Shown piece after piece: positions 3,379 to 15,646 of a stretch of 25,349 nt of DNA (position 1 is the first letter of the stretch; each line of letters starts with the position of its first letter). The notes under the pieces were generated by a model. It was not told the origin of the DNA, ran no database searches, and saw only the letters and a program-made list of their open reading frames with translations. The position numbers and the translations under genes are program-made. The stretch comes from a virus. Location of the stretch: positions 1 through 25,349 of the IMG/VR virus record IMGVR_UViG_3300012358_000008. One strand, written 5' to 3'.

Positions 3379-4800
3379 ATGACTATTCCATTCGTTGGCG
3401 GCGACGTAGGAGAGGACCTTGGCAAGCTTGCATCTGCCATCGGAAACCTGATTCAGCCAAACGCGCAGTTTAATCAGCAGGCAAAGCTACTCTTCTTGCA
3501 GAAGCCTGAGCTGATGCAGAAGATGGTCGATGTCGAGAAGGCCAACCCAGGAACGCTGAAGGCGTTTGGCTTTAACGAGCGTGCAACGGATCTGCTGTCC
3601 GGAATGCAGGAGTCCATTGCTGGTATGAAGGAGCGTGTGCTTCAGCCTGGAACCGAGGAAGCTCTCACGAAGCCAGGAGCAGCGCGCCGCGAAGCTGTCT
3701 CGCGTGAAGCGACAGGATTGACGGAAGGTCAAGTAGCCACTGATACTCTCGCCAAGTGGATGAGTACTGGTGGTGTAGATCTTCTCCAAAAAGACCCCGT
3801 TGCTTTTCAACGTGCAGTCAGAGAGAAACTTGGCCTTCCAACCGGCATCAAAGCAGCTGAGGAGACAGCACAACTCGCAGCCTTCAAACGTGGCGCGACG
3901 CTAAAGAACGAGACACCTACTTCGCTTGCTGATAAGGTCGTGGCTGGTACGATCAGCATTGCTGACCTCTCTGGTGGTGTCGTGAATCCAGAGACAGAGG
4001 CTGGAACGAAGTTCGCGCTGCACATGATTGCACAGAATAAAGAAGAAGAGATGAGAATGCGTTTGCTCAGAGCTGGTAAGAAGCTAGACGACTGGCAGGC
4101 ACGCGCACGTTTCGGTGTTGCTTCCGATCTCACTCGTCTTTCCGGTGGCTCTGTTCCCTTCTCTGCTTTCTACCAGAAGCTCTGGGGCGAGCAGTACGAG
4201 GGTGGTCCACCCCCGTCTGACGAGGACATGAAGCAAGCTGAACAGTTCTTGAAAGACACTGGAGCTGACAAAGGCATCCAGCGTAAACAACGGCTTTGGA
4301 GAACTATCTCCCCTGTTCTAGATGCTGTGAACAATCCCAAAAAGGACGTTAAGGTTCGTCCCGAGAACGCGCAGAAAGCTGCTGCTGACATTAACGCGGC
4401 GCTCAAGGAAAGTGGTGATACTACATGGACCGCAGTTGCTCAGGGTCCTGGTTGGGCTTGGGAATTGCCGCCATACCACAAGACTCGCATCTTGTTCCAG
4501 GATAAACAAGGTAACATCACACCAGATCCGAGTGTGCTGTTGTCGAGCACACCGAATCCGTTTACGCAGGATGGACGTGCTGTGGCTGACAGTCAGTTAA
4601 CTCCTGTGATGCGTCAGAAAGGAGCATGGTTGAATTCACTCTCTGATGATGCAAAGGAGGCGGAAGCAACTCGGATGTATACGGCAGAACGGGCTCGTGG
4701 TGGAGACGGATCGACCACTACCAGAACCTTGCAAGGTGCTGGACTTACAGACTACATTGAAGCACAAGGGCCTGACAGCACGAGCGAAGAGGAGGAGTAA
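3379..4800 (+). CDS. Probable internal virion / ejection protein (gp15-like position)
   Basis: This 473-aa protein is mostly helical and charged. I start it at the ATG at 3379, because GGAG at 3368-3371 is 7 nt upstream. A TTG at 3373 is also in frame but too close to that ribosome site. The N-terminal 60 residues are amphipathic helices ('LQKPELMQKMVDVEKANPG'). A long Lys/Glu/Gln-rich middle follows and the end is acidic (SEEEE). There is no membrane segment or enzyme motif that I recognise. It lies between the 236-aa and 1434-aa proteins and overlaps the latter as TAATG. By size order it corresponds to the middle internal core protein of T7-like phages; this is positional inference. Confidence 0.5.
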   Translation: MTIPFVGGDVGEDLGKLASAIGNLIQPNAQFNQQAKLLFLQKPELMQKMVDVEKANPGTLKAFGFNERATDLLSGMQESIAGMKERVLQPGTEEALTKPGAARREAVSREATGLTEGQVATDTLAKWMSTGGVDLLQKDPVAFQRAVREKLGLPTGIKAAEETAQLAAFKRGATLKNETPTSLADKVVAGTISIADLSGGVVNPETEAGTKFALHMIAQNKEEEMRMRLLRAGKKLDDWQARARFGVASDLTRLSGGSVPFSAFYQKLWGEQYEGGPPPSDEDMKQAEQFLKDTGADKGIQRKQRLWRTISPVLDAVNNPKKDVKVRPENAQKAAADINAALKESGDTTWTAVAQGPGWAWELPPYHKTRILFQDKQGNITPDPSVLLSSTPNPFTQDGRAVADSQLTPVMRQKGAWLNSLSDDAKEAEATRMYTAERARGGDGSTTTRTLQGAGLTDYIEAQGPDSTSEEEE

Positions 4801-7800
4801 TGCAAGATCCTCGCGATCCACAATCTCCCGTTTCCGATGATGATCTCTTCGGACCCTCGGGTACCTCTTCTTTAACGGCTAAACCCGAGATTCCAACTAA
4901 TCAATCTCCCGTCTCTGACGATGATCTGTTCGGTGGATCTGTAGCACATACGACCGCCAATAAATTGATTGGAAGCATGGGTGAACCAACACAACTTCCA
5001 TCGTTTGGCGGTGTTGCTCAGTTCACGGCGGATGAAACAAAGGCGGTTCCTGAAGCTAGACCAGCACCGCTGGAACCATTGCCGGAGGGTCCTCAACGTG
5101 ACATTCTACCTGGGGAATCACGTCGTCAATATCTCGAACGCAAGCGTGGGGAGTATCAGGGGTCGGCGGAGCAGATACGCGCTCAAGAGCTGGCGACGCG
5201 CTCTACGATCAGTCCTATCTCAGAAGACTGGAAGGATCGCATCCAAGGCAAGCTCCTTAACATGCGCTTGTTCACGAATAGGAGCTTAGTTGAATTCGAT
5301 CAGTCAGATGATTCAGGCTTCGGTGTCGGTGCTCCAGCTGCGCATCCGATTGAGACTGCGAAGAGCTTAGTCTTAGGGATTCCACACTTCTTCTATAACC
5401 TCGTGGCGCAACCTGTCTCGTTGGTTATGGATAAGACTACGCCAGGAGGTTTCCTACTTCCGGAGGAGAAAGAGCAGTACACGAGGGAGACTGTTGCTAA
5501 CGTCGCAGGTCTACTCGTTGGCGGTGCAATGGGCAGGATCTCGGCGGAGATGCGAGTTGGTCGTGAGTTTCTCCGTGCTGGAGCACGAGAGACGATGACC
5601 GACGCGGAGCTGAATATTCTCCGTACCACGCTTCCTCGCGCTGTGCAAGTAGAGAACACAGTGCTTGGGAAAGTAGTTACTGGTATTCATGAGGGTGCCG
5701 CTGGTGGTGCTGTCATGGGATTCCTCTCAGGTACTGATAACAAGGAGCGCCGTGATCTAGCTGCCTCATATGCTCTGATGGCGATTCCCGCTGGGTTAGC
5801 TTTCGAGGCAATCAAGGGAGCCAATAAGACTAGCCTTGGTCCGATCGCTGATGCAGCAGCTCAGGCTCAGGATTTATCACTGATTAGACAGAATCAATAC
5901 ACAGAAGGAGTGAATATAAGAAGAGCAAACGAATCATTCTACAACATGGCGACGAGTAAAGACTTGGCTACTGCTGCGATTCGCACAGCCAGAAATTTGA
6001 ATGAGGGTGCCGTCATTCCAGCTCTGACGACTGATCGTATTAGAACAATGGCGTTGGCAGAAGCTGAGCACGGCGACTTCATCACGCATAAACGCTCTGA
6101 TGGTCTGTATGACATCATGGTGAATCCGCCCACCGATCTACAGTCAAAGGCGTTCTTTGAGGTATCTGGCTTCCTACCAGAACAACCAGTCCATTTCCTC
6201 GGAAACGAGTATACATACGAACGTCCGGTTCTAAGCTCCAAGGGTAATCTCGAAGGACATATCATCAAGGACGCACACGGCGCAGAAGTCGAGGTAGGAC
6301 TCGATCATCTTCGTCGCGGCTTCGATGTGATGGCGAATCCCTTTGAGATTACGAAGGAAGATGTTAAGAGAGGACTGTATGAGGACTTCAGGAAGTTCAT
6401 TCGTCTGCGAACTCCTGAAGGTGCTGATGGTCCAGTCAACAGAACTTTTCGACAGTTGGTCGAGGAATATGCGAGCACGAAACATGAACAGCCAGAGAAC
6501 CTCCCAGGACTCTTCAAGTTTCTCGGTGATCGCTACGGAGAAGAACTTAGGAATCAGTCACTATCACCGAACGAACGTATTGCTTACGAGGGCATGGTTG
6601 CAGAGGCTCGCAGCTATCCTAAAGAACTCGCCGGTGAACTCTCTCAACTGGCAACCACAAACGGTATGTATGTCGAGAGAGCGAACGGCTCTATTTTTGT
6701 CAGAGATGCGCAGACTGGAACGCAACTCGGACACTTCCTAACTTCGGAGGAAGCCAAGAATTTCGTTAACACAGCTGATCAAGCGATGGGCACTGACTTG
6801 ATCGGTGACAACGGTGTGCCTCCTGGTGTGGCTAAGGGACTGATTGCTCCCCAGCCTGATCCCAATGGTCCTCACACCTCGACCTTCAATTACCAGAAAG
6901 ATGGTCCACTTGCGCAGTTTCGTCACTGGTTCAATACCACTCTACCGGGAAGACTGGTTACTAAACCGCGAGAGGTGATGATCGCGCTTGACTCTCAGCT
7001 AGGTACGCAGTTCAATTCGCAAGTCTGGCATCCTCTACAGGAAGCGTTCCGTCGCAAGTATGCTTTCATGCACGAGGATATGCGGCGCATCGCTGGGATT
7101 TCGCGGCTCGCAAAAGGATTGAAGCCTGACCAGTACGATGCCATTACTTCTGCTCTCGAAACGCGATCAGCTGAAGAGATGGTGAAGGCTGGAACTGGAC
7201 TATTCAAGCGTGGATTCACAGACAAAGAGATTGCTGGCGCACGTTGGTTTGCTGATCATCAGATTGACGTGAAGAAAGCGTTTGCTTACTATCGCGGTCT
7301 CAAGAATCTCGAGCGTCGGATGGGAGATACTGGTCCACGAGTTGACGAAGCAGTTAAGAGACTGCAAGTCAACTTGAACATGGACGAGAATCATCTTGAA
7401 GCTGCTCGTGTTCTCGGTCGCGTCTTAGCGATTAATAAGCCTGGTGAGCTTTCTATCTATGGCATCGTCAGACTCGCGGACGCGATTGCTGGTGGAACGC
7501 TAGAGCCTGAAGCGTACATGCAGCGCGAGAAGTTCACGCCTCAACAGAGAAAGGTGTACGACGAGCTGAAGTCATACTATAAGCAAATTGCACCGAAGTT
7601 CAACATTCCTGAGGAGCAACAGCTTCAGGGTTATATGCCACACCTCCGAATCTACAAGGATGATGTGATCTTTGTAGGTCGGGATAATGCGCCGGTTTTC
7701 ACATCAGAGCTATTGCGAACCGGAGAAATGGACGAGTTCGATCGTGATCCGATCAATGTAGCAGTTCGCTACACGAATTCTGGCTATAACAATCTGTACA

Positions 7801-9104
7801 CCAAACAGGCACTTGAGAAAGCATACGATTATGTAAACGAAGCTACTGCGCGCCTGCCTGAGCGTGAGATGATTCGCAAGATCATCGTCAATGATTACAT
7901 TGATCAGCTTCGTGGAGTGCCACACGATACATCCAAGTGGGCGCAGAAGACACTCAATGGAATGCTCGAACGGCTCGGGGTCAAGAGTTCTGTGGACACG
8001 AGAAGAGATCTAGTTAACACGTTCTTGTCTCTCACGTCATCTGCGACCATTGGCTTCCGTCCGATGCAAGGAATCAGAGATTTTCATAATCTTATTTCCT
8101 TGTATTACTCGCGGTTCGGTGAGCGTCGGACAGCAGCCATGCTCACACAAATGGCGAGAGTAACGCCGGACGATCTGAAAGCTGCGAAGATCATCAAGGA
8201 AGTTGTGCCTGGAGAAAGTACAGGTGCTGCGCTTACGAGAGAAGGTCAGATACCAACGATGGGAGCCATTAACATCGTAACTCCACAGGAACGTCTTGCT
8301 AACTCGATTTCAGGACGGACGCAGCCAGTTCGTGAGTTCATTCAGAAAACGGGTGAGGCAGGAATCAAGTGGGGGCTACAGCACACGATCTACCAGTGGG
8401 CACACTCCGCAGTGTACTTAGAGACGTATACTCGTGCCTTGAAGGAGATTGGTAAGATGGAGGGAGGATCGTATGGAGCAGGTGACGCCGCGAAAGTTAA
8501 GGCTTACGATAAACTGTTCATGAACTCCTACGATCCACCAGTTCAGCAGTTCTTCGATCAGCTAGTTAGGGAGGGGCGTTTCAGGGAAGCGGCTGATTTC
8601 CTAGGAAAGGCCACATCATACGAGACAGTTTCTGTATTTGGCCTAGCAAATCATCCCCTGGGCTGGGGAACAAATACAGGACGCATATTAGGACAATTTG
8701 GGTCCTGGCCTGTATGGGCACGCTCGCAGCTAATGCGTCTTGCGAGTAGAGGAACTGCGCGAGAACGAGCTGGCGTGATGACGAGATTTGCAATGACCCA
8801 ATCAAGTCTAGCACTTGCTTCAGCCGCGCTGGGTCTAAATCTATCGTCGTGGTATCTTGTTCCCGGCGCGCTTGGTTTTCGCGGAGGTCCTGCAGCAGGT
8901 CTAATAGGAACGGGACAACAATATCTGTCGGGCTCCGATAAGCAGCAGGCTGAAGCGAAAGCTCAGCTCTTGAAGGCTCCGATGCTGACTGTTCCTGGGT
9001 CATATCTGATCCGTGATATTTATGAGGGTGCTGACATCATGATAAACGGTGGCGATCCTGTCGGTGCCTTTTTCAGGAGCTTCGGGATTCGCCAGACTGA
9101 GTAG
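4800..9104 (+). CDS. Very large probable internal virion / DNA-ejection protein (1434 aa)
   Basis: The ATG at 4800 shares its A with the previous TAA and follows an AGGAGG-like site. The first 45 residues carry the motif QSPVSDDDLFG twice (8-18 and 35-45) in a Pro/Ser-rich, disordered-looking tail. Two hydrophobic regions follow (about 185-245 and 290-345, 'AAGGAVMGFLSG', 'ALMAIPAGLAFEAI'), then a long helical middle (about 700-1150). The C-terminal region is hydrophobic and aromatic ('GRILGQFGSWPVWARSQL', then an Ala/Leu stretch at about 1335-1370). In size and position it matches gp16-like ejection proteins that form the last part of the DNA conduit. I see no N-terminal lytic transglycosylase or other known enzyme motif. 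It ends the structural block and overlaps the convergent ATPase gene by 32 nt. Confidence 0.6.
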   Translation: MQDPRDPQSPVSDDDLFGPSGTSSLTAKPEIPTNQSPVSDDDLFGGSVAHTTANKLIGSMGEPTQLPSFGGVAQFTADETKAVPEARPAPLEPLPEGPQRDILPGESRRQYLERKRGEYQGSAEQIRAQELATRSTISPISEDWKDRIQGKLLNMRLFTNRSLVEFDQSDDSGFGVGAPAAHPIETAKSLVLGIPHFFYNLVAQPVSLVMDKTTPGGFLLPEEKEQYTRETVANVAGLLVGGAMGRISAEMRVGREFLRAGARETMTDAELNILRTTLPRAVQVENTVLGKVVTGIHEGAAGGAVMGFLSGTDNKERRDLAASYALMAIPAGLAFEAIKGANKTSLGPIADAAAQAQDLSLIRQNQYTEGVNIRRANESFYNMATSKDLATAAIRTARNLNEGAVIPALTTDRIRTMALAEAEHGDFITHKRSDGLYDIMVNPPTDLQSKAFFEVSGFLPEQPVHFLGNEYTYERPVLSSKGNLEGHIIKDAHGAEVEVGLDHLRRGFDVMANPFEITKEDVKRGLYEDFRKFIRLRTPEGADGPVNRTFRQLVEEYASTKHEQPENLPGLFKFLGDRYGEELRNQSLSPNERIAYEGMVAEARSYPKELAGELSQLATTNGMYVERANGSIFVRDAQTGTQLGHFLTSEEAKNFVNTADQAMGTDLIGDNGVPPGVAKGLIAPQPDPNGPHTSTFNYQKDGPLAQFRHWFNTTLPGRLVTKPREVMIALDSQLGTQFNSQVWHPLQEAFRRKYAFMHEDMRRIAGISRLAKGLKPDQYDAITSALETRSAEEMVKAGTGLFKRGFTDKEIAGARWFADHQIDVKKAFAYYRGLKNLERRMGDTGPRVDEAVKRLQVNLNMDENHLEAARVLGRVLAINKPGELSIYGIVRLADAIAGGTLEPEAYMQREKFTPQQRKVYDELKSYYKQIAPKFNIPEEQQLQGYMPHLRIYKDDVIFVGRDNAPVFTSELLRTGEMDEFDRDPINVAVRYTNSGYNNLYTKQALEKAYDYVNEATARLPEREMIRKIIVNDYIDQLRGVPHDTSKWAQKTLNGMLERLGVKSSVDTRRDLVNTFLSLTSSATIGFRPMQGIRDFHNLISLYYSRFGERRTAAMLTQMARVTPDDLKAAKIIKEVVPGESTGAALTREGQIPTMGAINIVTPQERLANSISGRTQPVREFIQKTGEAGIKWGLQHTIYQWAHSAVYLETYTRALKEIGKMEGGSYGAGDAAKVKAYDKLFMNSYDPPVQQFFDQLVREGRFREAADFLGKATSYETVSVFGLANHPLGWGTNTGRILGQFGSWPVWARSQLMRLASRGTARERAGVMTRFAMTQSSLALASAALGLNLSSWYLVPGALGFRGGPAAGLIGTGQQYLSGSDKQQAEAKAQLLKAPMLTVPGSYLIRDIYEGADIMINGGDPVGAFFRSFGIRQTE
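4821..4934 (+). repeat. Direct repeat coding for QSPVSDDDLFG twice
   Basis: Two copies (4821-4853 and 4902-4934) encode the identical 11-residue peptide, 27 residues apart, at the N-terminus of the 1434-aa protein. The DNA differs at several third positions, so the peptide rather than the DNA seems to be under selection. Confidence 0.85.
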
Positions 9105-10311
9105 ACGCAGCTTTTGGAAAGGAGTAAACAAGTTTTGTTTTCCCTTGGTTGTAGGGATCTTCTTCGTCCACGTACATCTTGATTTTCCCCATATCAATCA
9201 ACCCTTGAATCAACTCTTCAAGCTTTCTTGGATCAGCTGATTGATAAAAGTTTGCTTTGAGGTCTCGCTTCGTCACTTCTCTCCGCCGCGCAATCCATTC
9301 CAACATCCTGTTCATGTCTACGGCGTAAGGGTTCTTGCCGATATTCGAGAACGTCCGTGGCATCTTCTGTTCGAGATCGTCCAAGATAGCGATAGCTCCA
9401 TCGAAATCATCCTTAGTAAGCACAAGCTCATCAGAGTAAGCAAGATGGAGTAGCATTGCGAGCTTGTGGACGTGAGCTGGTTTGCGCTCCATGTATCCGC
9501 GCATTCTGTAATTCTCACCAATCGAACCTGCCTTTCTAGCGACTTCCCGATACCACGCCTCCATGTATTCCTCTGTTTCAGAAGATTCAATCTCGAAGTC
9601 TCCTGCCACATCCTTCGCTAGGTGAAGTAGATCGTCAATCAGATCGAGACGCATTTGCTTCATACGCTCGTAGTCAAGTCCCAGCTTGTTATAATAGAGC
9701 TGGCGACGACGCACTTCTTCCTCAAACACGAAGATAACACGAGACGCAAATCCTCCCCCGATGACATGCTCCGGCATATTATTCGAGATCCAGTCAGGGG
9801 TAGTACAGGCCAAAAGATTAACACAGGGCTTCTCAGCAAAATCCAACCCGCGGCCAAGGGTTTCCACCGAGACATCCCTATTGGCATCGAAAAGATGCGT
9901 GAGTACATCGTACATATCGAATCCGCTTTTTTGTATGAACATCGCGAATTCGCTCGAAAAGATGCTCAGAGAGGAGTCATCAATCTCTGAGAGTTTCTTC
10001 AACAAATTTTCTTTAGTGATTGAAGTTGCGACCCGTTCTACGACTGGAATTTCACTGAGCAGATCTTCACTGTAGTTCGCAGACGTTGACTTTCGAGGGC
10101 CGCCGGGAGGACCAACGAAAACTATGTATAGCGTAGGACTCACTTCCCAACCACCAAGTAGTTTCTTAGGCACCCTCACTCGGCGTTTCAACACTGACGC
10201 CATGGTGAAGAGTCCCGCCCACAGATGATATGATTCCGGCGCTTCTGACCTCGGGAGACTCCAGTCTCTGAATGTCAGCAGCCAGTTGTCGCACTTTCTT
10301 TGGTTCGACAT
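9073..10311 (-). CDS. DUF3987-type ATPase, probable replicative helicase
   Basis: A 412-aa protein. The N-terminus 'TFRDWSLPRSEAPESYHL' (13-30) followed by 'WAGLFTMASVLKRRV' is typical, as I recall, of the DUF3987/YfjI family of RecA-like ATPases found in phage replication modules. The P-loop is GPPGGPRKST (67-76), one residue longer than usual and with Arg instead of Gly before Lys. A hydrophobic strand 'LSIFSSEFAMFI' (115-126) with Glu121 fits the Walker B region. The C-terminal about 90 residues (from 325) look like a winged-helix domain ('VTKRDLKANFYQSADPRKLEELI'-like, split here for length). Together with the polymerase upstream it probably acts at the replication fork. Its first 146 nt overlap the previous gene and its last 32 nt overlap the convergent virion gene. 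Confidence 0.7.
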   Translation of the reverse strand: MSNQRKCDNWLLTFRDWSLPRSEAPESYHLWAGLFTMASVLKRRVRVPKKLLGGWEVSPTLYIVFVGPPGGPRKSTSANYSEDLLSEIPVVERVATSITKENLLKKLSEIDDSSLSIFSSEFAMFIQKSGFDMYDVLTHLFDANRDVSVETLGRGLDFAEKPCVNLLACTTPDWISNNMPEHVIGGGFASRVIFVFEEEVRRRQLYYNKLGLDYERMKQMRLDLIDDLLHLAKDVAGDFEIESSETEEYMEAWYREVARKAGSIGENYRMRGYMERKPAHVHKLAMLLHLAYSDELVLTKDDFDGAIAILDDLEQKMPRTFSNIGKNPYAVDMNRMLEWIARRREVTKRDLKANFYQSADPRKLEELIQGLIDMGKIKMYVDEEDPYNQGKTKLVYSFPKAASTQSGESRSS

Positions 10312-10932: not shown

Positions 10933-11820
10933 TTAAGCCGCGAACTTGATATCGTACGAGCCCACTTCACGATGTTGTTCTTCAAGCTCGCCCCAGCGGA
11001 CGCCAATTTCACAGTCAACGGGGATAGTAAATTCTTCATCGTTGATGACCATTGGACGGAGTAGAAGTCTGTGAACCTGTTCGCAGATCTCAGCTGTGAT
11101 TGCGTCATCGACCTCGAACAGGATACTGTCGTGGGACTGATTGATGATGCTGATAATTCCAGTTTGCACAAACTGCTTATCGACTACGATCAATCCTCCT
11201 TCGACTCCTACTTCATCTTGCACGGCGCCGTTCAGGTGATCCGCTACCGTTGACTGTGGGACATGGGCTGTGGCTTCTTTGAAGAGTTCGTTTCCCCAGG
11301 GTGCGAAGAAATATCTAATTCGACCATAAGGCGTGCGGAGAGTATGTGTTTGCGAGAGCTGATACTCAATTTCACGCCACCAGCCTTGTATATCATAGTA
11401 GTCGTGCCATGCTTGGTAAAAGACCTTCGACTCCGCATGAGTAACTGTAACAAATGGAGGTTTGTCGGAATCCTTGTTAATGACTTCGCAAGCTCTTCCA
11501 GGACCCATGCGATATGCTGTTGCGTGATTGTATCGCTTTCCGACGTATCTGGCAGTCTTTTGGTCATTTTTGGGCATCCCATCCCATTTGTCGTCGGAAT
11601 ACTTGAAGAGAGCTTCCTTGGCCGTCTGCTTGTGAAGGTCGCCGAAATGCAGAGCTTGCTTCATGTTCTGCTCATTAGCAAGATATGCGACGACCCAACT
11701 TTCTGCCTGAGCGAGGTCGAAGAGTACAAGCCGCTTGCCAGGCGGTGCGATGACCATGCTACGAATTGGTATCTTCTCGATCCCCTTCGTTCGCTCAGGC
11801 ATTTTCTTATTATCGCTCAC
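10933..11820 (-). CDS. Family-A DNA polymerase, C-terminal catalytic half (split gene)
   Basis: This 295-aa piece is the palm and fingers of a Pol I-type polymerase. Counting from the GTG: motif A 'LVLFDLAQAESWVVAYLA' (31-48; Asp35, Glu40), motif B 'QKTARYVGKRYNHATAY' (87-103; Lys95), 'RTPYGRIRYF' (162-171), 'KEATAHVPQSTVADHL' (181-196) and motif C 'QSHDSILFEV' (228-237; Asp231). Both metal-binding Asp are present; the Glu usual after the motif C Asp is Ser. It lacks thumb and exonuclease, which are in the gene at 12177-13991. The start is uncertain: GTG 11820 has no ribosome site, while ATG 11802 lies 4 nt after the stop of the 36-aa gene and could be reached by re-initiation. Residues 1-16 are basic (KK, R, K). 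Confidence 0.85.
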   Translation of the reverse strand: MSDNKKMPERTKGIEKIPIRSMVIAPPGKRLVLFDLAQAESWVVAYLANEQNMKQALHFGDLHKQTAKEALFKYSDDKWDGMPKNDQKTARYVGKRYNHATAYRMGPGRACEVINKDSDKPPFVTVTHAESKVFYQAWHDYYDIQGWWREIEYQLSQTHTLRTPYGRIRYFFAPWGNELFKEATAHVPQSTVADHLNGAVQDEVGVEGGLIVVDKQFVQTGIISIINQSHDSILFEVDDAITAEICEQVHRLLLRPMVINDEEFTIPVDCEIGVRWGELEEQHREVGSYDIKFAA

Positions 11821-11920
11821 GCCGACGGCGACGGCGCAACTCGTAGATCAGGCCGAGCAATACCACGGCGCCTCCGACAGGTAATGCCCAGGTCGCGACC
11901 AGTTCGTTTATCGACGGCAT
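11810..11920 (-). CDS. Tiny single-pass membrane protein with poly-Arg tail
   Basis: A 36-aa protein: short polar N-terminus, one hydrophobic helix (residues about 12-28, 'LPVGGAVVLLGLIYEL') and an almost all-Arg C-terminus (RRRRRRER). The ATG at 11920 is preceded by GGTGGAG about 12 nt upstream and overlaps the 81-aa gene by 13 nt; the stop overlaps the GTG of the polymerase C-half. The positive tail predicts N-out/C-in topology. It is part of a GC-rich stretch between the polymerase halves. A holin-like or nucleic-acid-tethering role can be imagined, but I do not recognise a family. Confidence 0.45.
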   Translation of the reverse strand: MPSINELVATWALPVGGAVVLLGLIYELRRRRRRER

Positions 11921-12153
11921 ACGGCCACCGTTCTCCACCACCACGCTGTGAGTCCGAAGAATCCAGCGACCGCACCGACGAACCCGACACCGGAGCCAGC
12001 CAACCCAGCGAGCCCGATGGCGATTCCAAACGGCCCGAGGAAACATTCTGGGTCACCTCCGTAGTAGCGACCCTGTGCATTGCTCCTTGGTGGCATCATT
12101 GTGCTGGTTAGCAGCAAGCCAATCAAGGCCCACAGCCAGATTTTACGAGACAT
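11908..12153 (-). CDS. Small secreted or membrane protein, Gly-rich, inside the split polymerase locus
   Basis: An 81-aa protein with a good ribosome site (AGAGGTG, 5-6 nt before the ATG). The N-terminus (1-27) is a classic signal peptide: positive start, hydrophobic 'IWLWALIGLLL' core and a likely signal peptidase cut after SNA (about residue 26). The mature part has one Cys near its start, a Gly/Ala-rich hydrophobic helix with many GxxxG-type spacings (about 40-66), three Trp and a basic end. This is a glycine-zipper-like, potentially oligomerising or pore-forming peptide. It is not a recognised phage family. The region is about 60-68% GC over 11821-12060 against roughly half in the polymerase halves; part of that follows from Gly, Ala and Arg codons. 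Confidence 0.55.
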   Translation of the reverse strand: MSRKIWLWALIGLLLTSTMMPPRSNAQGRYYGGDPECFLGPFGIAIGLAGLAGSGVGFVGAVAGFFGLTAWWWRTVAVCRR

Positions 12154-12158
12154 TTTGC

Positions 12159-12177
12159 ACCTCTTTTTTGTCGAGGT
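12159..12177 (-). promoter_or_regulatory. Small hairpin covering the ribosome site of the 81-aa gene
   Basis: On the - strand ACCTC (12177-12173) can pair with GAGGT (12163-12159) across a 9-nt A-rich loop. GAGGT is the ribosome-binding site of the 81-aa gene, so the stem could lower its translation unless ribosomes finishing the polymerase N-half open it. The stem is only 5 bp. Confidence 0.25.
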
Positions 12178-13991
12178 TATACTGCTACCGCTTCTTCTGT
12201 CTCCTTCTCTTCATCTACCTCCAATTCGAGATCCTCCTTTTCGCATTCGAGAATGTATGGTAGAACAGACTTCATGAGTTCATTATCCTCGTAATTCTTA
12301 AGTTCAAACACCTCCCGAGGAAACGTCTGCGCATTAGCTCCTGTACCATCAAAGTACATGGCGCAAGCCCACCGTCCCGTCTCAGGACCAACAGGCTTAT
12401 ATGTAGCGCGGAGTCTCCCATCTGAACTGATTGGAACATTGATGTAAGAAGACAACAACTTTCTAACTCCGCGGATGACAAGGATTGTCTTGAGAGCTTC
12501 GTACCTGACTCTCCAGAACTCGACGGCGTTTCCACCTGGCTTGAGCTTAGAAAGTCTGTCTTTGGTAAAGGCGATGAGGGATACGATAGCATCTTCATCT
12601 GTCGTTACCTCTCCAGTCTTGTGGCTCGTGCGTGGTGGAAGTCCGAACTTGTCCTTGTCATAGAGTATCTTGGCTATTACTTTTGGAGAGTTGACATTGG
12701 TCTTGTAACCAGTCAATCTATCCAGTACGAACTGATTGATTGCCCACTTTATCTCCAGTGCTCGCTTCAGCATCGCGCGACGCTCCAGGTCTATGAGCAT
12801 TCCTGCGTTGCTGATTCGTGCGGCTGGAGCATATTGTGACATTTCGAACCTGAACACTTTCATCCAGTCCTTTGGACCTTCTGCCATCTCCCTCACTTGA
12901 TTCTCGAACACTTCGTACGTCACACCAGTATCGGTGCCGTTGTAGATGTAGAGTTCTTTCTTCTCGAACTTCTCACTCCATCCCTTCGCGTCCTCTGGAA
13001 TCTCAGCTCGACCGGCCGTCTTATAGTAAGGTTGTCTAGTGTAGACGGAGCAGAGATATTCCAGACTCTTAGGCAACTCCGCCCACATCACATGTTGACA
13101 AGCCATCGTATCCCAGAAGAAGTTCTCTATAACGAAGTCGTTTGCTTCTAGGATGGGTATGTCGAAAGTCCCTCCATTATGGAAGATTTTCTGTGCTCTG
13201 CTGCGATATATCGCGTCAACGGCACTGAAGCGAGAAAAGTCTCCTGGTGAGTGCGGAAAGACAACAGACGTAAGAGGATCAGGGCTGAAGCCGTGACAGA
13301 GGATGCGGGCCGACTTCTTAATAGTCTCAATATCACAGGCAAGATACTCAGCTTCGCAAAGCCGTTGAACCCAAGACTCGAGTTCTTCACCTCTAGGATC
13401 GATAATGACGTTGCGAACAGGAAGCCGGAGTTCGGCAAAGCTTGAATCAGAAACAATACGCTTAATGTCGGTGTCGAATATAGGATACGCTGTTGGCTGC
13501 CTGATGATAAAAGCAGGGTGATAGGAGGCAATTACCTTTACTCCTTCGCATCCTGGGAGAGTACATGGGAGAATAGATCCTCTCCACTTTCCAATTCCTG
13601 TTCCAGCAGCTTTCTTTCCCCGCTTACCAGTGAGGAAATAAAGGGGCCAAGCTCCAAGCGCGGCGACGACATTAGGACGAAACTTTCTAATGTCACTAGC
13701 AAGCTCCTCGACTCCGGCTGCCAGCTCACTACTACGGAGGACCGCTGCGAAGACGTTGTTCGGCGGACGATGTTGGACCAGATTGCAGAATCGAACGGAA
13801 TCTTCACTAACTCCGTTGTTTCCAAGGACAGCTCTAAGCTTACTGCCAGACGCACCAATAAACGGCCGTCCTTCAATAACCTCATCTGCACCCGGTCCCT
13901 CACCAACGCAATAGATTCGAGCATCCAGTGGACCCTCGTTTGGTACGCGCTTGGTGCCGATGCCGGTAGTCACTTGCGAGAACCTTTCCAA
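12177..13991 (-). CDS. Uracil-DNA-glycosylase-like + 3'-5' exonuclease + polymerase N-terminal half (split family-A polymerase)
   Basis: A 604-aa, three-domain protein. Residues about 25-185 resemble UDG superfamily family 4/5: 'GEGPGADEVIEGRPFIGASG' (30-49, given in parts here: GEGPGADE, GRPFIGASG), 'NLVQHRPPNN' (70-79) and 'SYHPAFII' (156-163). The N-terminal CxxC of the family-4 iron-sulphur cluster is absent. Residues about 190-370 are a DEDDy exonuclease: DIET (220-223), HNGGTFD (271-277), YNGTDTG (350-356), all key acids present. From 380 the polymerase thumb follows, up to 'GPETGRWACAM' (535-545) and 'GANAQTFPR' (551-559), the NLQNIP-like motif. Then homology stops and a Glu-rich 44-residue tail ends the protein. 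The palm continues in 10933-11820. Start ATG 13991 overlaps the previous gene by 22 nt. Confidence 0.88.
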   Translation of the reverse strand: MERFSQVTTGIGTKRVPNEGPLDARIYCVGEGPGADEVIEGRPFIGASGSKLRAVLGNNGVSEDSVRFCNLVQHRPPNNVFAAVLRSSELAAGVEELASDIRKFRPNVVAALGAWPLYFLTGKRGKKAAGTGIGKWRGSILPCTLPGCEGVKVIASYHPAFIIRQPTAYPIFDTDIKRIVSDSSFAELRLPVRNVIIDPRGEELESWVQRLCEAEYLACDIETIKKSARILCHGFSPDPLTSVVFPHSPGDFSRFSAVDAIYRSRAQKIFHNGGTFDIPILEANDFVIENFFWDTMACQHVMWAELPKSLEYLCSVYTRQPYYKTAGRAEIPEDAKGWSEKFEKKELYIYNGTDTGVTYEVFENQVREMAEGPKDWMKVFRFEMSQYAPAARISNAGMLIDLERRAMLKRALEIKWAINQFVLDRLTGYKTNVNSPKVIAKILYDKDKFGLPPRTSHKTGEVTTDEDAIVSLIAFTKDRLSKLKPGGNAVEFWRVRYEALKTILVIRGVRKLLSSYINVPISSDGRLRATYKPVGPETGRWACAMYFDGTGANAQTFPREVFELKNYEDNELMKSVLPYILECEKEDLELEVDEEKETEEAVAV

Positions 13992-14155
13992 CCTTTATTG
14001 ATTTGATCCATTGCTTGACGAAGCACCTTCAGTGGAACCGAGATACTGCTACCTAACTCGCGTCCCATCGTTGGTTCGGAAATTATTACAACGGCTTCAT
14101 CAGGATTCCTGACATCAAATGCGAAGCCGTTAAGCTCTATGCTCAGCTTAGCCAT
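13970..14155 (-). CDS. Small conserved-looking protein of unknown function
   Basis: A 61-aa protein with a beta-rich first half ('MAKLSIELNGFAFDV', 'AVVIISEPTMG') and a basic helical end ('LRQAMDQINKGWKGSRK'). The ATG at 14155 lies 1 nt after the preceding stop (TGATATG) and the end overlaps the polymerase N-half by 22 nt, so it is translated with the polymerase genes. No family recognised; a replication accessory role is suggested only by place. Confidence 0.6.
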   Translation of the reverse strand: MAKLSIELNGFAFDVRNPDEAVVIISEPTMGRELGSSISVPLKVLRQAMDQINKGWKGSRK

Positions 14156-14156
14156 A

Positions 14157-14336
14157 TCACTTCAATGCTCTGAATGCTTCTTGTACGCGCTCACGAATGT
14201 CGGTTACGATTTTCAGTGTATCATCTGGCTTGATGTTTGTCAGTTCTGCGAGAACTAATGCAAACTCGATTCTCGATGGAGGAATTTCGCCCTTCAATTT
14301 ACTAGCAGCCCACTCACGCTGTTCGTTGGGAGTCAT
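14157..14336 (-). CDS. Small helical protein of unknown function
   Basis: A 59-aa protein, MTPNEQREWAASKLKG onward, predicted all-helical ('RIEFALVLAELTNIKPDDTL', then a charged helix to RALK). Its ATG overlaps the stop of the ParB-methyltransferase gene (ATGA, 14336-14333) and its stop is 1 nt before the next ATG. These tight junctions on both sides are the main evidence that it is real. Confidence 0.65.
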   Translation of the reverse strand: MTPNEQREWAASKLKGEIPPSRIEFALVLAELTNIKPDDTLKIVTDIRERVQEAFRALK

Positions 14337-15646
14337 TTCAGTATCTCTACTTGGTGAAGTGTCTTAAGGTACTCGCCCAGACGAGTAAGTCCTCGCTGAT
14401 GACTCGTTTCATTAAGCTCGAATCCAAGGGCTCGCCTATTCTGACGTAGGGCGGCATGGAGTATTGCCATCGAGCCAGCTGTTGGATCAAGAACCAGCTC
14501 ACCTGGGACTGTAAGCAGCTTGATGAGAGCCTCGCAAAGATCAATGGGCTTCTCAGTGGGATGGATAAGCGCAGCCACGGGTACGCGGTTGTAACAGAAG
14601 ACATTGGGTCGTCCTTGCTCGTGCAGAACTGGATCACCTTTCCGCACGATCATGAATGTCTCGTATGCGTCAATCAGCTGCTTCTCCGGGAATCTGTTCT
14701 GGTCTGACACCTTATCAGGTTTGAACCAGATACATGGTGTACGCCCAAACTTCAATGAGAAGCCGGCGGCTGAGAGTCTCCCAACCATGTCTCCATACGC
14801 CCAGGCTCGATACCAGAAGATGAGAAATCTATCATCTCGTAGCACGCGACATAACTCTGGAAGCAGACCGTTAATAATGCGGTCAGAACTTTCAGTATCA
14901 TCGTCGAAGCCTTCCCAGTTGTCGTTACTCTTATGACCTGTGTCATCTCCCCAGGGAGGGTCAAAGTTAACGAGGTCAACAGAGTTGGATGGAATGGCTC
15001 TGATAAGGTCGAGGGCGTCACCCATCTTGGCAATATCAGCAGCTCGACTATACGCTTCTGCTGCATTGTCTCTTACCTCCACATGGCGTGCGCGAAGCTT
15101 CTCTGCTACCTTCATCCTTTTAACAGCCGAAGAGAGCGTAGTTGCTTTTGCAACTCCAGGGTCTGTTTTAATAGCTTCTTCAATTCGGAGGTAATGAGAG
15201 ATAGACGCTGGTGAGAGACGAAGAGATGCAGCCGTAAGTTCTGCAGTCCACTTTCCACCTGCAGCAATTGACTGTCTCTCCATTTCTTCGTGGAACTTGC
15301 GGATGAAGCGTGCCTTTTCGACGTATGTGAAGTCTTTGCGTTTTTCGTTTTCATCAAATTCGACCATGAGCTGGACGTGCTGCGGGAGATGCCCAATGAT
15401 CGAGAAGGAGAGATGCCCGACTTCATGCCCTTTCGGAGCAAGATTCTCCTTAGCAAGTCTCTCGACTGCACGGAGCCTTCTTTCACCAGCGCGAAGGATA
15501 TACTTTCCATCCTCTTGCTGAAGGACGATGGGCTGCAGCTGACCGAGAGCCACGAGTGACTTCATGAGCCATTCGAGTTCTTCCTCGCCAATGTCTTCAC
15601 GAAGCCGCTCGCGAATCTCGACCTTACTGAAATGTACTGTGTTCAC
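14333..15646 (-). CDS. ParB-like domain fused to a DNA methyltransferase
   Basis: A 437-aa fusion. Residues 1-110 form a ParB/Srx-type domain: 'LVALGQLQPIVL' (31-42) and 'YILRAGERRLRA' (49-60), the GERR box of the ParB CTP/nuclease fold. A helical, HTH-like section follows (about 130-180, 'LTAASLRLSPASISHYLRI'). The C-terminal half is a beta-class SAM methyltransferase: motif IV 'NFDPPWGD' (227-234), 'HPTEKP' (362-367), motif I 'LDPTAGS' (386-392) and 'ALGFELNE' (406-413), order IV before I as in N6-adenine and N4-cytosine enzymes. It probably methylates phage DNA, perhaps to avoid host restriction; target sequence unknown. The GTG start overlaps the previous stop (GTGA); the end overlaps the 59-aa gene (ATGA). 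Confidence 0.85.
   Translation of the reverse strand: MNTVHFSKVEIRERLREDIGEEELEWLMKSLVALGQLQPIVLQQEDGKYILRAGERRLRAVERLAKENLAPKGHEVGHLSFSIIGHLPQHVQLMVEFDENEKRKDFTYVEKARFIRKFHEEMERQSIAAGGKWTAELTAASLRLSPASISHYLRIEEAIKTDPGVAKATTLSSAVKRMKVAEKLRARHVEVRDNAAEAYSRAADIAKMGDALDLIRAIPSNSVDLVNFDPPWGDDTGHKSNDNWEGFDDDTESSDRIINGLLPELCRVLRDDRFLIFWYRAWAYGDMVGRLSAAGFSLKFGRTPCIWFKPDKVSDQNRFPEKQLIDAYETFMIVRKGDPVLHEQGRPNVFCYNRVPVAALIHPTEKPIDLCEALIKLLTVPGELVLDPTAGSMAILHAALRQNRRALGFELNETSHQRGLTRLGEYLKTLHQVEILK

Follow-up and report, generated by a model that had tools for sequence, protein, structure and literature searches.

A phage family A DNA polymerase broken through the palm into two genes, a probable two-subunit enzyme of one viral lineage

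The stretch of DNA analysed here (the window, 25,349 nucleotides) is a 25.3-kb IMG/VR virus record whose minus strand carries two ORFs that together make up one family A DNA polymerase. The gene for the N-terminal part (N-half) lies at 12177..13973 (-) and encodes 598 aa from a GTG at 13973. A TTG at 13991 is also open (604 aa, 13991-12177); the GTG is the more likely start because relatives start there and because it forms a GTGA overlap with the stop codon of a 61-aa ORF immediately upstream (13970..14155, -). Further upstream is a gene combining ParB_N and DNA methylase (14333..15646, -), and downstream of the polymerase lies a DUF3987/DNA primase-helicase-like gene (9073..10311, -). The former is conserved in split and unbroken relatives alike, and the latter is also a conserved neighbour. 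A 1434-aa ORF without PHROG match occupies 4800-9104 on the plus strand, convergent with the replication operon.

The N-half contains, in order, a family-4-like UDG domain (Pfam E 1.4e-20, with matches to family 4-type structures in the PDB), a 3'-5' exonuclease with its DxE/D/YxxxD residues present, the thumb and the first palm strands up to GANAQTFPR; the Pfam and PHROG matches to DNA polymerase A stop at about residue 559. Modelled alone with AlphaFold2, the N-half of the window reached a pLDDT of 87.7, with the final 18 residues below 50. The UDG (13973-13450) is N-terminally fused to the polymerase across the whole family. A literature search for UDG fusions returned nothing, and a PDB entry annotated as a putative DNA-directed DNA polymerase I (9qhs, 1142 aa) also matched the UDG region.

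The gene for the C-terminal part (C-half) follows at 10933..11820 (-) and encodes 295 aa from a GTG that has no clear Shine-Dalgarno site, with an alternative ATG at 11802. It supplies palm and fingers, beginning IPIRSMV, and the DNA_pol_A match resumes at residues 15-18 (Pfam and PHROG; Pfam E 1.5e-15). The profile match to the E. coli Klenow fragment had an E value of 6e-86, and the family A residues were conserved in motif A (D35..E40), motif B (R91, K95, Y103) and motif C (H230 D231). Both ORFs were thus found where the initial annotation had placed them on the minus strand, with polymerase homology ending at GANAQTFPR and resuming in a separate downstream gene; its claim that the exonuclease and polymerase catalytic acids are intact on the two pieces held at all positions. 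At the equivalent of E. coli Pol I Phe762 (C-half residue 99, window 11526 region), all 30 aligned relatives, whether split or unbroken, carried His. PolA types have been described with Phe, Tyr or Leu at position 762, Leu being found in many virioplankton PolA, and histidine goes unmentioned in the text of that study (Nasko et al. 2018, PMC6302109). This typing feature, which is variable and not strictly defining, is absent here.

The two genes are separated by 356 nt, and the profile alignment to E. coli Pol I passes straight over the break, which falls at the turn of NLQNIPVRNEEGRRIRQAF, about residues 681-688 of E. coli Pol I as counted from D705. Related phages with an uninterrupted gene, to which the initial annotation had looked for placing the junction, number about 60, and they put it at this turn: the aligned unbroken relatives mostly have 3-6 residues between the NLQNIP-like stretch and the (I/C)R(x)MF strand, where the split loci have a stop, a tail and a new start instead. 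The locus is a split gene in the sense that separate ORFs encode complementary parts of one enzyme that has unbroken orthologues in relatives. A second IMG/VR contig (L021) was 99.99% identical to the window across 8118 bp that include the N-half and the greater part of the gap. When viral contigs and, in one scan, bacterial genomes were searched, the same break turned up in 13 other contigs (L002-L008, L010, L011, L013, L027, L030 and L102), with L012 being a near-copy of L011. The near-identical contig and the 13 further contigs show that the break is not an assembly error. L102 (JACCVY010000265.1) came from the bacterial genome scan and lies within a MAG assigned to Blastocatellia (Acidobacteriota), a weak hint at a host; as a single match on one MAG contig, it is too weak for a claim.

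In trees of the N-half, the C-half and both jointly, 13 of the 14 split loci (L102, which has the same layout, was left out) formed one clade (SH-aLRT 99-100) nested among the roughly 60 unbroken relatives, with L033 and L036 the nearest unbroken rows in the N-half tree. Within the clade, C-half identity to the window ranged from 39 to 57%, a divergence which indicates that the break is old; the close pair L004/L005 was 69% identical. Nearly every catalytic position checked was kept in the split rows. For close pairs dN/dS was 0.07-0.16 in the N-half and 0.07-0.15 in the C-half, with several dS values saturated and one value not computable. Distances in the two halves were correlated (Mantel r 0.81, a value reached in 0 of 2000 permutations), as would be seen in partners that move together but also from shared ancestry alone, and this correlation makes frequent exchange of halves between phages unlikely. 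Beyond the two halves, no second PolA and no PolB or PolIII (PF00476, PF00136, PF07733) was detected in ten records comprising the window and nine relatives of 44-54 kb; all clade members are metagenomic and many are linear contigs that may lack parts of the genome, and replication by a host polymerase is conceivable.

What lies between the halves differs from member to member. In the window, the gap holds a small ORF of 81 aa (11908..12153, -), signal-peptide- or membrane-like and preceded by GAGG, and a second of 36 aa (11810..11920, -), membrane-type with an Arg-rich end, which overlaps the C-half start and would reach 78 aa from an in-frame ATG higher up. Neither of these two ORFs had a Pfam or PHROG match. 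An alternative candidate is an 87-aa ORF (11817-12080) ending in GTGA on the C-half start. Elsewhere the gap holds DUF4031 (L004), a Zn-ribbon-like ORF plus a second ORF (L005), an RyR-domain ORF (L027), 2.2 kb with ThyX (L013), 3 kb with an epimerase (L030) or ORFs without known identity (L002, L003, L006, L008). These contents are unrelated among members of the clade. Start and stop codons overlap as ATGA or GTGA in L002, L004, L005 and L006. In L007, a TGA stop is followed by 3 nt and an ATG, with both halves in one frame and AAGGGG 8 nt before the C-half ATG, while the halves overlap in different frames by 20 nt in L011 and by 14 nt in L102. No endonuclease was recognised between the halves of the split clade by Pfam or PHROG in the part of the gap ORFs scanned; a homing endonuclease insertion, the cause in some other split phage genes, is one possible origin of the clade's break. 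Immediately upstream of the N-half gene of one member (L002:2018-2403) lies a sequence resembling HNH that may be spread over two frames.

We next consider whether the two genes might still yield a single chain. The initial annotation had offered, as an alternative to two subunits, a spliced intron covering about 12310-11790. Group I introns are reported in phage Pol A genes (as cited in PMC10580990), and the authors describing a comparable split in phage MEP401 left an intron possible for their case (PMC10580990). For the window, however, splicing of a group I or II intron to give one polymerase is very improbable. No Rfam match to either intron class was obtained in 11000-13000 at E<=10, and no Rfam intron reached the gathering threshold in the window or in 12 split loci; a scan of L063 found no intron either. 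A shared intron or intein is excluded because the gap sequence is unrelated between contigs and absent in three, and neither a spliced intron nor a split intein can explain L007, L011 and L102, which leave no room between the halves and yet keep a separate stop and start for each. Production of one chain by stop readthrough, ribosomal frameshift or split-intein trans-splicing is also improbable. The shared frame in L007, one TGA apart, and the out-of-frame overlaps in L011 and L102 make readthrough or frameshift conceivable in those three; the window allows neither, as its C-half frame opens just 27 nt ahead of the start codon and its gap contains stops. In L007 the AAGGGG ahead of the C-half ATG also speaks for separate initiation. 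As for inteins, the halves of a split intein measure about 100 aa (IntN) and about 35 aa (IntC), and the tails at the break, with 3-45 aa, and the heads, with 2-18 aa, are too short for them.

Two further explanations would deny that the halves now form one enzyme. That the locus is a dead or dying gene, or a sequencing or assembly artefact, is extremely improbable: other loci (L038, L086) do have breaks that look like frameshifts, but the present break is common to 14 contigs and recurs in the second, 99.99% identical contig, and both halves show low dN/dS with the catalytic positions nearly all conserved. It is just as hard to credit that each half now works by itself at a task of its own, one for instance as a UDG-exonuclease and the other as an accessory polymerase domain that stands alone. 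Independent action of the UDG and the exonuclease is conceivable, and splits between exonuclease and polymerase are found in L014, L089, L094 and L098. The break studied here, however, runs through the palm, the TGR...NAQT segment of the N-half makes sense only together with the palm and fingers of the C-half, and both sides are conserved and have diverged in a correlated manner.

We then examined the new ends created by the break. The N-half of the window ends in an acidic C-terminal tail of 45 aa (12180..12314, -), with 17 Asp+Glu, 4 Lys+Arg and a net charge of -13, of which the last ~18 residues are predicted to be disordered; the Glu-rich tail described in the initial annotation is therefore real. 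The C-half of the window opens with a head of 18 residues and net charge +2. Of the 13 loci scored for charge, 10 had acidic tails of 29-45 residues and net charge -10 to -16, and inspection of L102 by eye showed one there too, while in L011, L013 and L030 the N-half ends after 3-10 residues. Most C-half heads comprise 2-5 residues before the conserved strand (net +1 to +2), and longer ones occur only in the window, L004, L005 and a few others. Of the electrostatic pairing that had been proposed between a Glu-rich tail and a Lys-rich head, the charged ends are present in the window, but three members without a tail and the shortness of most heads indicate that it is not a general requirement. 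The new ends are thus not a universal charged zipper, and pairing is weakly supported. Acidic C-terminal tails are known in phage replication proteins, and by analogy a possible role of the tail is docking to a replication partner or shielding.

To represent the assembled pair, the in-frame halves of L007 were read through the TGA as one chain. AlphaFold2 modelled this stand-in with a mean pLDDT of 93.1 and a pTM of 0.90, weak only at the tail/junction and in a few loops; joining the halves favours a good score and is no proof that separate chains associate. The best PDB matches of the model in Foldseek were the large fragments of Bacillus and E. coli Pol I (TM 0.82 by target). In the model the pieces complete a single predicted Pol I fold, and the junction lies where the chain is flexible.

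The explanation that we favour, at a probability of about 0.87, is a two-subunit family A polymerase that a single event split in the ancestor of this lineage and whose halves would assemble into an active enzyme. The initial annotation had likewise preferred two subunits to a spliced intron, and this choice is strongly supported by the same break in one clade, the unrelated or missing gap, the overlapping start and stop codons and the intact catalytic residues; purifying selection and the lack of any other detectable polymerase in relatives point the same way, as far as sequence comparison can tell. In the ancestor, a UDG-bearing family A polymerase would have suffered a single break in the short turn, exposed at the surface, that links the NLQNIP-like segment to the strand preceding motif A. 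The two cistrons would be translated separately within one operon, probably with translational coupling, given that overlapping start and stop codons are usual. The two chains would then probably fold together across the palm into an active two-subunit replicative polymerase. The gap would since have served as a neutral site for the gain and loss of ordinary phage genes, and the acidic tail may be a later or dispensable addition with a docking or shielding role. A more speculative version, which we regard as unlikely, is an obligate heterodimeric Pol A with regulated assembly, in which the flexible acidic tail on the N-subunit docks a replisome partner or gates association with the C-subunit and the gap serves as a lasting insertion slot for accessory genes. 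Were this regulated heterodimer true, repeated breaks near the same palm strand would mark a tolerated or favoured Pol A fission site.

Breaks close to this position were also found outside the clade. In L044 (MazG-like gene between the halves), L063 (HNH endonuclease between) and L065 the gene is broken after the next strand, directly before motif A, and the trees require two or three separate events for them. The HNH ORF of L063 (L063:7625-7954; phrog_826, E 8e-13) lies between halves whose close relatives L061, L067 and L072 are unbroken, and in L063 a homing endonuclease may well have broken the gene recently. The exonuclease/polymerase breaks in L014, L089, L094 and L098 have about three origins. 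The independent breaks in L044, L063, L065 and MEP401 make the neighbourhood of motif A a recurrent fission point. With 14 split pairs, about 60 unbroken relatives and other breaks near the same strand, the panel makes palm fission tolerance testable, and the pairs could provide ready-made split polymerases for biotechnology.

Some of the closest known systems are unbroken. Polymerases of related phages (Desulfofustis phage LS06-2018-MD01, Microcystis phage Mel-JY34, MW202489) have the same UDG-exonuclease-PolA domain order, but in one gene, and unbroken related phages share the gene neighbours, with a methylase or ParB upstream and DUF3987/primase downstream. The only published phage Pol A of such a split kind that we found is that of the Methylophilales phages MEP401 and MEP402, where the family A polymerase spans ORF13/ORF14/ORF15, an arrangement seen in most relatives of their group and for which the authors could not choose between an intron and a split gene (PMC10580990); literature searches for further split polymerases of family A turned up PolB and PolIII cases only. 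As in the window, two polymerase ORFs flank a small unrelated ORF, with the exonuclease in the N-part and the catalytic motifs in the C-part. The MEP401 break (IKTLFLSRYGE / MILNADAKALEW), however, falls after the next strand, about 15-20 residues closer to motif A, and ORF13 has neither the UDG domain nor the acidic tail of the window's N-half. The MEP401/402 polymerase was absent among the matches listed for either half (E 1e-5). The intron ambiguity of the MEP401-type split is removed for the window's clade by members with nothing between the halves. The gp43A/gp43B polymerase of T4-like Aeromonas phages is likewise a replicative phage polymerase in two cistrons, the halves of which purify together and are active as a polymerase, one case also carrying a homing endonuclease gene (PMC2988022), but it belongs to family B, with an unrelated fold and break site. 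The nrdA gene of Aeromonas phage Aeh1 was split by gene insertion, and both pieces are made and the enzyme is active (PMC2988022); it encodes a ribonucleotide reductase, and the inserted gene is a homing endonuclease, of which no counterpart was seen between the halves in the window. Phage replicative polymerases in two pieces are thus already known, and the present case stands apart by its break site, its lineage, its domain content and the acidic tail. A replicative family A polymerase can apparently stay broken through the palm, beside its active site, until its members have diverged to ~40-50% identity.
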